Assembly: GCA_949487135.1 (NCBI GenBank)
Contig: CATAJQ010000002.1
Span: 80,540 to 144,539, forward strand
Length of the DNA stretch: 64,000 nucleotides
Direction of reading: 5' to 3'
Origin: Cellvibrionales bacterium UBA7375
GTDB taxonomy: Bacteria > Pseudomonadota > Gammaproteobacteria > Pseudomonadales > Porticoccaceae
The notes below the pieces were generated by a model, which saw nothing but the letters and a program-made list of their open reading frames with translations, did no database searches and was not told where the DNA came from. Positions 15,857-55,402 of the stretch are shown here, in pieces (within the stretch, counting starts at the first letter, position 1; every line of letters begins with the position of its first letter). The position numbers and the translations under genes are program-made.

Positions 15857-16366
15857 ATGATTACATTCCGCACCACTATGGGCGATATTTTAATAGAATT
15901 AGATTTTGATAAAGCACCAATATCTTCTGCCAATTTTTTAACCTATGCTAAAGACAGCTTTTATAATGATACGGTTTTTCACCGTGTTATTAATGGCTTT
16001 ATGGTTCAGGGTGGCGGCATGACGTCTGATATGCAACAAAAAACAGGCAATGCTCCAATTGAAAATGAGGCTGACAATGGCCTAAAGAATGATATTGGAA
16101 CTTTGGCAATGGCAAGAACTGCAGACCCGCATTCAGCCTCTTCCCAGTTCTTTATCAATGTATCTAATAATGACTTCCTAAATCACAGCGGCAAAAACAT
16201 GCAGGGCTGGGGTTATGCGGTTTTTGGCAAGGTAGTAGAAGGTATGGATGTTGTTGAAAAAATCAAAACAGTCCCTACTGGGAGTGCCTTTGGACACCAG
16301 GATGTTCCCATTGATCCCATCGAGATCACTGAAACTATTATTAGCGACGAATACTCAGCTAAATAA
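15857..16366 (+). CDS. ppiB: Peptidyl-prolyl cis-trans isomerase, cyclophilin type (PpiB)
   Basis: A cytoplasmic cyclophilin that accelerates proline isomerisation in folding proteins. The core segments [14 protein letters not shown], ANDxx-like [20 protein letters not shown] and [10 protein letters not shown] are present. About 170 aa is normal. The ORF track uses ATG 15845; ATG 15857 has GGA at a better distance and begins with the usual [10 protein letters not shown]. No signal peptide, consistent with PpiB rather than PpiA. It is followed 8 bp later by lpxH, the Pseudomonas order. Confidence 0.95.
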
Positions 16367-16374
16367 TTTAGTTT

Positions 16375-17091
16375 ATGGCTATCCTGTTTATATCAGATCT
16401 CCATCTATCACCAGAACGCCCGGAGGTAACCCGGGCGTTTTTGTCTTTCCTGCGACAACAAACAGATTCAACCGAAGCGCTGTTTGTTCTAGGTGATCTA
16501 TTTGAGGCATGGATTGGTGATGATGACACCTGTGCGACAGGTATTGAAGTTCAAAAAGCCTTTAAACAGCTAACTGACAAAGGCGTTGCCTTATTTGTCC
16601 AACATGGCAATCGTGACTTCTTTCTCGGTAAGCGATTCTGTAAAACCACTGGTGCTAACCTACTTGTCGATGAGCACCTTGTTGAATATAACGACAAAAC
16701 TGTTTTAGTGATGCATGGTGATACTCTGTGTACCGACGACGTTGACTATATACATTTTAGGCGCAAAATTCGTCATCCCATTAGTAAGTTCTGCCTACAA
16801 TTACTGCCATTAAAGTACCGGCAAAAATTAGCCACCAATATGCGCGCAAGAAGTAAGGCTGCCAACGCCAATAAAGCCAGCGCCATTATGGATGTTAATA
16901 CTAATGCAGTTGATGCGGTAATGACTAAACATGGGGTTACAACGCTTATACATGGGCATACACACCGACCCGACCGCCATCAACATACAGGCGGTGAAAG
17001 AATTGTGTTAGGTGATTGGCATGATAAGGGTTGGTATATAGTTTGGGATTCTTCAGGTATAAACTTAAAAAGCTTTAGCATCCTAGGCTAG
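16375..17091 (+). CDS. lpxH: UDP-2,3-diacylglucosamine diphosphatase LpxH
   Basis: A peripheral inner-membrane calcineurin-like phosphoesterase that cleaves UDP-2,3-diacylglucosamine to lipid X in lipid A synthesis. Metal motifs in order are FISDLHL, LGDLFEAWIGDD, GNRDF, MHGDTLC and GHTHRP. The 238-aa length is that of E. coli LpxH (240 aa). It lies 8 bp after ppiB. A strong terminator-shaped hairpin lies within codons 14-23 and may limit transcription reading in from ppiB. Confidence 0.96.
   Translation: MAILFISDLHLSPERPEVTRAFLSFLRQQTDSTEALFVLGDLFEAWIGDDDTCATGIEVQKAFKQLTDKGVALFVQHGNRDFFLGKRFCKTTGANLLVDEHLVEYNDKTVLVMHGDTLCTDDVDYIHFRRKIRHPISKFCLQLLPLKYRQKLATNMRARSKAANANKASAIMDVNTNAVDAVMTKHGVTTLIHGHTHRPDRHQHTGGERIVLGDWHDKGWYIVWDSSGINLKSFSILG
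16415..16442 (+). terminator. Intrinsic-terminator-like hairpin inside the 5' coding region of lpxH
   Basis: A perfect 9-bp G+C-rich stem AACGCCCGG / CCGGGCGTT with a 7-base loop runs straight into TTTTT (16438-16442). It has all the parts of a Rho-independent terminator but lies about 40 bp inside lpxH and 49 bp after the ppiB stop. It could terminate most ppiB transcripts, with lpxH expressed by readthrough or by translation-coupled antitermination. Confidence 0.6.
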
Positions 17092-36830: not shown

Positions 36831-36952
36831 TTGCTCTCCAAATTAAATAATGTTTTTAGCGTAAAAATATAGTCTAAATCTAAGCGATGTATCATACCTT
36901 AAATCCATAACAATCACGTAAATTTATACTTTTAATACCTTGGCTAAATAAT

Positions 36953-36978
36953 AAAAAAGGCCCAAATATGGGCCTTTT
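36953..36978 (-). terminator. Intrinsic terminator of the aceEF operon
   Basis: On the minus strand AAAAGGCCC / GGGCCTTTT forms a 9-bp stem with a 6-base loop and ends in six T residues. It lies 33 bp after the aceF stop, so no lpd gene is co-transcribed. Confidence 0.88.
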
Positions 36979-37010
36979 CCAATCTTGCTTAGATTTAACT
37001 AATGTCAAAC

Positions 37011-45774: not shown

Positions 45775-47208
45775 TTGCTAAAAGTACTACTCATACCCTT
45801 CCTTTTAATCCCTAGCTTCAGTTGTTTGGCTGCCGATATAAAATTACCTATGCTCGGTGACAGTAGTTCAGGCATAGTATCCAAAAATAAAGAATATAAA
45901 CTTGGAAAAGCATGGCTACAACAATTTAGACGATACGTTAAACAACATGATGACCCGCTTTTTCAGCAATATTTAGAACAGTTAACCTTTGATTTAGTCA
46001 CTCACAGTGAGCTTGAAGACACTAGGCTTACACTTGTCTTGGTCAATAATTCCAGCATTAATGCTTTTGCAGTACCTGGAGGAATAATTGGTGTTCATAC
46101 CGGAATTTTTACCCATGCTGATAATGAAGATCAGCTTGCCTCAATTATCAGTCACGAATTGGCTCATCTAAGCCAACGTCACTATGCAAGAAGTGTAGAA
46201 TCCAACCAAAATAGTTCAGCTATTGCACTGGCTGGTCTTTTAGCCACGCTTATTGTCAGCTCAAAAGCTGGTACTGATGCAGGTATGGCCGCCCTTTCCG
46301 CAACTCAAGCATTAGCCAGTGATCAGCAGTTGCGCTACAGCAGAAACAATGAAAAAGAAGCCGACCGTCAAGGTATAAAAATCATGGAGAGATCTGGCCG
46401 AAACCCCCGGGCATCAGCTGATATGCTCGAAAAAATGATGGCTATTACTCGCTACAAAGCAAATCGATTGCCAGAATTTTTATTGACGCACCCTATGACT
46501 GAGCGTCGAGTATCTGATACCAAATCAAGAACGATAAAGTATCAAGATCAAGATTTTCCAGATAGATTTGATTTTTATATCATGCAAGCTAGAGCGCAGG
46601 TTCTACTTCAAGATAACCCCAGGTATTCGATCAAATATTTTCAGCAAAAACTAGCCGAGGAACAAACGAATAGTGACGCTTATAGCTACGGTCTTGCACT
46701 ATCTCATGCTAATGCCGGCAACTTTAGTCTAGCTAAGCAACTTATATCTCGCCTTATCGGTAAAGACACAGGCTATGAGCCCTATATCTATACTGATATT
46801 GAAATTGATATTGCCGCCGGCAATTATAAACAGGCGCTAAAAAACCTCGATTATCAATTAGGGCTTAAGCCAAATAATTTTCCATTAAAAATACTCTATG
46901 CAGATGCGCTGTGGAAATCTCATCAATATCAACAGTCGGCTAAAGTATTGACACTCTTAAGTAGACAGCGCCCACAGGATCCGAGCATATGGTATCAATT
47001 AGCTGAGGTTCGTGGCTTAGCAGGTAATATTGCAGGTGTTCATAGAGCTAGAGCAGAATATTTTATTTTAATCGGTGCCCTAGAAAATGCGCAAAGGCAA
47101 TTAAATTTTGCTGAAAAACTATTGCAAAAAGACGTAAAGCAATTGGCCATCGTTAAACAGCGCTTATTGGAGATAAATGAGATGGAAAAGGAATTAAAAA
47201 AACTCTAG
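45775..47208 (+). CDS. bepA: M48 metalloprotease BepA-like, beta-barrel assembly-enhancing protease
   Basis: A 477-aa periplasmic protein with signal peptide ([17 protein letters not shown]). It has an M48 domain with the zinc motif [10 protein letters not shown] (HExxH, about residues 123-127) and distal ligand region [15 protein letters not shown]-terminal TPR-like helices (about residues 290-470) follow. BepA promotes LptD maturation and degrades stalled outer membrane proteins. The start is TTG 45775 with AAGG upstream; no ATG is in frame nearby. It is divergent from perM across 203 bp, as in E. coli, and overlaps the nadA stop by 4 bp. Confidence 0.93.
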
Positions 47209-48263
47209 GTGGTTTTTTTAAAATCTAACATTCTATCTAATGCTGTTGTGGCTAACTGAGCAATAGTTGGCTCAACATTAATTTCGCCGCTATCCGACTC
47301 AAGACAGTGCAATAGGTTTTTTAAGGTATTCATTCCCATCCATGGACAATTCGCACAGCTTCTACAGGTCGCACCACTGCCTCCCGTTGGCGCTATAATT
47401 AGCTCTTTATCCGGAACTGCCTGCTGCATCTTATAGAAAATACCCTGATCTGTAGCCACTATCAGTCGCTGCTGTGGAAGACTTTTAGCCGCTGCAATCA
47501 ACTGTGAAGTTGAGCCAACCACATCAGCTATATCAACCACAGATTGTGGAGATTCTGGATGAACGAGAACGGCAGAATCTTCATGCACCTGTTTTAGGTC
47601 AGTTATACCCTTTGCTTTAAATTCTTCGTGCACAATACAGCTGCCATTCCACATCAACATATCAGCACCGGTTTGCTTTTCAACATAGGCCCCTAGATAT
47701 TTATCCGGTGCCCAGATGATTTTCTCACCTAAGGCGTCCAAATGATCAACCACATCAACCGCGATACTCGAAGTAACAACCCAATCTGCGCGCGCCTTTA
47801 CCTCAGCAGAAGTGTTGGCATAGACCACAACTGCTCTATCGGGGTGTTGATCACAAAAGGCATTAAATTGATCGGCTGGGCAGCCTATATCAAGCGAGCA
47901 TGTAGCCTCAAGGGTGGGCATTAATACTTTTTTAGTAGGAGTAAGAATTTTGGCTGTTTCGCCCATAAACTTAACACCAGCAACAATTAAGGTGTCGGCG
48001 CTATGAATACTGCCAAAACGAGCCATCTCAAGGGAATCTGCTACCACACCACCTGTTTCCTCAGCTAAAGCTTGAATCAGTGGGTCGGTATAATAGTGGG
48101 CGACAATAACAGCATTTTTTTTAACTAAAAGTTGCTTAATCTGCTTGCGAATTAACGCTAGCTGCTCGGGAGGCAAAGGCTCATCAATGGATACTTTATT
48201 GAGGTAGTCTTGAACGAGAGCCGTGGTGTCGTTGCTAGAGATGGAGTTTTGATCTTGATGCAT
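47205..48263 (-). CDS. nadA: Quinolinate synthase A
   Basis: A [4Fe-4S] enzyme condensing iminoaspartate with dihydroxyacetone phosphate to quinolinate for NAD synthesis. Cluster cysteines lie in [13 protein letters not shown] and [18 protein letters not shown]. The triplicated NadA fold begins with [21 protein letters not shown]. At 352 aa it matches E. coli NadA (347 aa). A 37-aa membrane protein gene lies just upstream on the same strand, 13 bp from its start, and is likely co-transcribed. Confidence 0.97.
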
Positions 48264-55373: not shown

Positions 55374-55402
55374 AAAAAAAACACCCCTTCGGGTGTTTTT
55401 TT
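55374..55402. terminator. Bidirectional intrinsic terminator
   Basis: ACACCC-CTTC-GGGTGT forms a 6-bp stem with a tetraloop, flanked by seven A on the left and seven T on the right. It can terminate either strand. It lies 11 bp past the stop of the minus-strand beta-propeller gene, which it most likely serves. Confidence 0.9.

Follow-up and report, generated by a model that had tools for sequence, protein, structure and literature searches.

A terminator-like hairpin within the first codons of lpxH is a candidate leaky terminator of ppiB and attenuator of lpxH

Terminators of upstream genes that also serve as attenuators of the downstream gene have been described for frd and ampC in E. coli and for nlpD1 and penA in Burkholderia, and antitermination at ampC depends on growth rate (PMC6045580). 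Internal terminators are known as well, for example those of Clostridia ABC importers, where long stems with poor U-tracts tune operon stoichiometry (PMC9045158), and read-through is frequent in E. coli (PMC6131387). The pair ppiB-lpxH has been termed a conserved operon in P. aeruginosa (PMC13086221), and disruption of ppiB in E. coli was reported to be polar on the essential lpxH (PMC7353009). Here we describe a terminator-like hairpin that lies inside the start of lpxH itself. No description of a terminator within lpxH was found in the literature searched, and neither lpxH nor ppiB is named in the text portion of an E. coli 3'-end mapping paper (PMC7815308).

The window, meaning the whole 64-kb stretch of DNA that was analysed, comes from a genome of 1.44 Mb in 47 contigs, and the nearest named relatives of its lpxH are from SAR92-clade and Porticoccaceae bacteria. 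The features used below, in window coordinates, are as follows:

15860..16366, plus strand: ppiB, cyclophilin-type peptidyl-prolyl isomerase; best NCBIfam matches to the PpiB and PpiA families, both below the curated cut-off
16375..17091, plus strand: lpxH, UDP-2,3-diacylglucosamine diphosphatase (lipid A pathway); NF003743 at 306.7 bits (cut-off 134) and TIGR01854 at 294.3 bits (cut-off 190.35)
16415..16423, plus strand: 5' stem arm AACGCCCGG, covering lpxH codons E14, R15 and P16 and base 1 of E17
16424..16430, plus strand: loop AGGTAAC, which varies freely among relatives in the alignment
16431..16439, plus strand: 3' stem arm CCGGGCGTT, covering the end of T19, R20 (CGG), A21 (GCG) and the start of F22
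16438..16442, plus strand: T5 tract (F22-L23), with release predicted at ~16440-16446

The hairpin has a 9-bp stem, a 7-nt loop and T5, and occupies codons 14-23 of lpxH. An earlier note, made from the sequence alone, had reported a terminator-like hairpin inside the start of lpxH and just after ppiB, and both points were confirmed, the former by sequence, fold energy and a hairpin scan and the latter by the end of ppiB at 16366, which leaves 8 nt to the lpxH ATG. Its description of a perfect 9-bp GC stem with T5 was correct for the nine pairs and the T5, but two of the pairs are A-U (the other seven are G-C) and the T5 overlaps the end of the stem, with its first two T pairing with AA. After the 9-bp stem there are three T only, followed by GTCTTTCC. 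The stem can be extended to 11 pairs, one of them G-U, by joining 16413-16414 to 16440-16441. The fold energy of the hairpin was -20.6 kcal/mol compared to a shuffled mean of -10.1, and none of 200 shuffles was as low. Both sequence elements of an intrinsic terminator were found, namely a GC-rich stem-loop (-14 to -20.6 kcal/mol, z of -4 to -4.7) and a U-tract, which is T5 in the window, weaker in Pseudomonas and missing from a few loci. Using a terminator-like score and cut-offs (30 and 36) of our own, which were also applied to the controls, the hairpin ranked first among terminator-like sites of the surrounding 14 kb (10-24 kb), and was the only sense-strand match within an ORF across the 64-kb window at a score of ≥36. 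The in-ORF background for these scores consists of the 64-kb window and the rest of lpxH. Hairpins elsewhere in the window, at 55375-55402, 47194-47221 and 36952-36981, scored on both strands and lie outside long ORFs; these are probably bidirectional terminators.

For comparison among relatives, we gathered 355 loci, 350 of which had a testable lpxH, and grouped them into 138 clusters at 60% protein identity, a level at which synonymous sites should be saturated. The gene directly upstream of lpxH was ppiB in 264 of 286 related loci. A whole-gene scan of the 138 clusters found a hairpin scoring ≥30 in 24.6% of clusters at the first 30-nt window after the DLHL motif, compared to 0-2.2% in every other window. 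In the window's own order, 25 of 59 clusters had the hairpin, compared to 7 of 31 in an E. coli-like order and 2 of 48 in other gammaproteobacteria; we take the E. coli-like order to be Enterobacterales because both the E. coli hairpin and an lpxH like that of E. coli occur in some of its members. The hairpin occurs in two or more orders, and is conserved in the sense of occurring within sampled clades, where at least half of the clusters are without it at the cut-off. It lies ~35-44 nt past the lpxH start codon in most loci (~39 nt in the window), and the sense strand, which is the T-rich side, outscored the antisense strand in 32 of 34 hairpin clusters. The T tail is weak in Pseudomonas (TTTCTGG). 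A stem of the CGCCCGG/CCGGGCG type is retained with little or no T tail in L074/L154, L206 and L217, and these tail-less stems are unexplained by plain termination.

A blastn search of E. coli genomes with the window's lpxH as query returned no match, the genes being too diverged. The window's genome also encodes a distant second LpxH-like metallophosphoesterase (L002; G000:C1:1318-1983), which scores 34.9 bits and falls well short of the LpxH cut-off. In two other genomes, one of the same genus (G016:C4:70957-71635) and one small genome of another order (G573:C1:39724-40406), lpxH is seemingly split into two overlapping frames, which may reflect a frameshift, assembly error or decay.

Synonymous codon choice was evaluated by resampling, holding residues fixed and drawing codons according to usage in the window's long ORFs. 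For the window's lpxH, the observed hairpin score was reached in 5 of 60,000 synonymous draws, and the joint frequency of the stem codons CGC CCG .. ACC CGG GCG is 6e-5. Of the Arg codons in the window's long ORFs, 4.5% are CGG, yet CGG accounts for 71 of the 77 Arg codons at the stem site across the window's order, while CGC (R15) and CCG (P16) are almost fixed among relatives. With codon pools drawn mostly from one or two genes per locus, 26 of the 138 clusters had a hairpin at the site at p ≤ 0.01 (binomial 3e-25), and E. coli lpxH alone gave p = 0.019. In 58 distinct lpxH genes from Pseudomonas, the stem codons were CGC in 100%, CCG in 98%, CGG in 100% (versus 20% gene-wide), GCG in 100% (versus 43%) and TTT in 95% (versus 38%), and the hairpin window held the strongest codon bias in the first 130 codons. 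Across all stem-bearing clusters, TTT at F22 showed a weak preference (21 of 28 versus 16.5 ± 2.5 expected). The earlier note had proposed asking whether synonymous sites of the stem are conserved in relatives and had named stem-breaking synonymous changes as evidence against it. The resampling, the codon fixation and the Pro-codon covariation described below speak strongly in its favour, and no stem-breaking synonymous changes were seen in close relatives. Judged from these codon patterns, the hairpin is under selection at synonymous sites, beyond the needs of the protein.

The hairpin also recurs with different stems. Across Pseudomonadales, CGCCCGG-N7-CCGGGCG is near-invariant because the residues R-P-[D/E/A]-x-x-R-A combined with full pairing permit only CGC CCG G...C CGG GCG. 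The same codons carry another stem in E. coli K-12, AACCGGCG-ATCAC-CGCCGGTT and then TTCTGCGTTTTTT (within 553,899-553,875 of NC_000913.3), and other stems rebuilt there are GGCCTGA/TCAGGCC, AAAGCCTGC/GCAGGCTTT and GCCCTGA/TCAGGGT. The pairing register differs between lineages (i+j mostly 61 to 65), so inheritance alone does not account for the hairpin, which has been remade or shifted. The codon of P16 tracks its pairing partner, being CCG in 67 of 74 cases with R20 CGG and CCT in 8 of 15 with Q20 CAG (Fisher 7.6e-7). Among 30 diverse sequences sharing one register, 96.3% of cells were paired and four of the nine pairs had changed on both sides, a result matched by 0 of 500 shuffles, with relatedness uncontrolled. 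The loop-closing pair has changed from G-C to A-U in L007 and L174.

Where ppiB and lpxH are further apart, a hairpin may lie between them, and it was never found alongside the one in lpxH. For 72 loci with a gap of 26-300 nt, a terminator-like hairpin occurred in the gap in 24, in lpxH in 14 and in both in none (Fisher 0.003, uncorrected for relatedness). Textbook terminator-like hairpins with long T runs stand between the two genes, directly before lpxH, in L302 (for example, AAGGGAGCGCTCGCTCCCTTTTTTT), L306, L308, L241 and L274. Counted by cluster, the lpxH hairpin was present in 27 of 82 with a gap of ≤25 nt, 6 of 37 with a wider gap and 1 of 19 with no adjacent ppiB; this last case appears to be a start-codon miscall, as a re-check finds none. 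The remaining 55 short-gap clusters have the gene pair without the hairpin. After correction for the tree, the association of the hairpin with a short gap, a gap hairpin or ppiB leans the same way, with 8-9 independent pairs, too few to count. The pattern is most simply read as a need for a terminator after ppiB, which compact gene pairs write inside lpxH. The earlier suggestion that the hairpin could uncouple lpxH from ppiB is supported, for a partial uncoupling, by its position at the boundary of the two genes and by the gap hairpins of other lineages, but full uncoupling is impossible because every transcript for whole LpxH must pass the hairpin.

Taken as a sequence-based reading, the hairpin is probably a leaky, or partial, intrinsic terminator at which much of the ppiB mRNA ends, and it doubles as an attenuator of lpxH. 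Once RNA polymerase from the ppiB promoter had copied 40-70 nt into lpxH, the hairpin would fold and a fraction of polymerases would be released at the U-tract. The position of the hairpin, past the lpxH start codon, leaves no room for a promoter beyond it, and all full-length LpxH would therefore derive from read-through. LpxH, an essential enzyme in low demand, would in this way be kept below its upstream neighbour within one operon, and a ribosome on lpxH close behind the polymerase would melt the hairpin and favour read-through. What we infer is termination, leakiness and modulation by the ribosome; the sequence features and the sense-side T bias fit intrinsic termination with read-through. 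The putative ppiB terminator also lies before the end of the downstream lpxH, the position expected of an attenuator of the frd-ampC kind.

A refinement of this explanation, rather than an alternative to termination, is that termination responds to some condition by way of how ribosomes initiate or how fast they move on lpxH (or at the end of ppiB), and that lipid A synthesis is regulated in this way. The layout is suitable, with the ppiB stop so near the lpxH ATG and the hairpin at its usual distance past the start in most loci, and at pyrL of E. coli an advancing ribosome prevents intrinsic termination (PMC5021804). Translation-dependent antitermination, which the earlier note had raised, is plausible for the lpxH hairpin. 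However, neither a conserved alternative fold nor a leader peptide nor a ligand site was noticed there, and Rfam gave nothing above threshold at the site and no match even at E ≤ 1, and we hold the idea of a condition-sensing attenuator as possible but doubtful. The main live rival to termination is a decay-protecting hairpin, a barrier to 3'-to-5' exonucleases: the whole ppiB-lpxH mRNA would be made, the lpxH part would decay while ppiB is protected, and decay would set the ppiB:lpxH ratio. Protective hairpins of this kind after the first gene of operons have been documented by Term-seq in enteric bacteria (PMC5927463), and such a barrier would account for strong stems with little T tail (L206, L217, L074) and for the weak Pseudomonas tail. 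It is at odds with the T-rich sense side in nearly all hairpin clusters, with the fixed TTT in Pseudomonas and with several gap hairpins (L302, L306, L308) that are textbook terminators with long T runs, and we regard it as unlikely.

Near-invariance of the stem in Pseudomonadales could also point to a DNA palindrome that binds a protein, as an operator or other site. Given the encoded residues, though, pairing alone forces that sequence; the quite different stems and registers at the same codons elsewhere would not be tolerated by a sequence-specific protein; and the T-rich side is the sense side, which together make this reading very improbable. Finally, the hairpin might arise by chance or as a by-product of the protein, with residues RPxxTRAF yielding it from common codons. 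This motif is conserved and does permit the stem, but the explanation was rejected on the basis of the synonymous resampling, the unusual codons CGG and GCG and the Pro codon that changes with its partner, and we give it almost no credence.

The LpxH enzyme is essential and is a target for antibacterials. Should the hairpin prove to terminate transcription, read-through of a signal in the gene's own codons would set how much LpxH is supplied in E. coli, Pseudomonas and relatives. The 'silent' codons 14-23 would then be functional, which would be relevant to recoded genes and expression constructs, and the locus would offer a clean case of one DNA stretch selected both as protein and as terminator, in which pairing predicts codon choice.

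As a leaky terminator and attenuator, the lpxH hairpin would most closely parallel several described systems while differing from each. Like decay-protecting operon hairpins, it is a stable hairpin just past a first gene, but those operons were chosen for absence of the hairpin-plus-U signature that the lpxH site carries (PMC5927463). It shares with the Clostridia ABC importers a long GC stem and a poorer U-tract after the first gene, an arrangement that there gives high upstream and low downstream transcript; those terminators are intergenic, whereas the lpxH hairpin must also encode LpxH residues 14-23. As in the pyrBI attenuator of E. coli, where the terminator lies within the pyrL leader, a ribosome close behind the polymerase would prevent the hairpin, but lpxH has no leader peptide or known signal and the translated frame is the gene itself. 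Like frd-ampC and nlpD1-penA, the putative terminator of an upstream gene would double as the attenuator of the downstream one; in those pairs it lies before the downstream coding sequence, whereas at lpxH it lies inside the coding sequence of an essential gene, in at least two orders.
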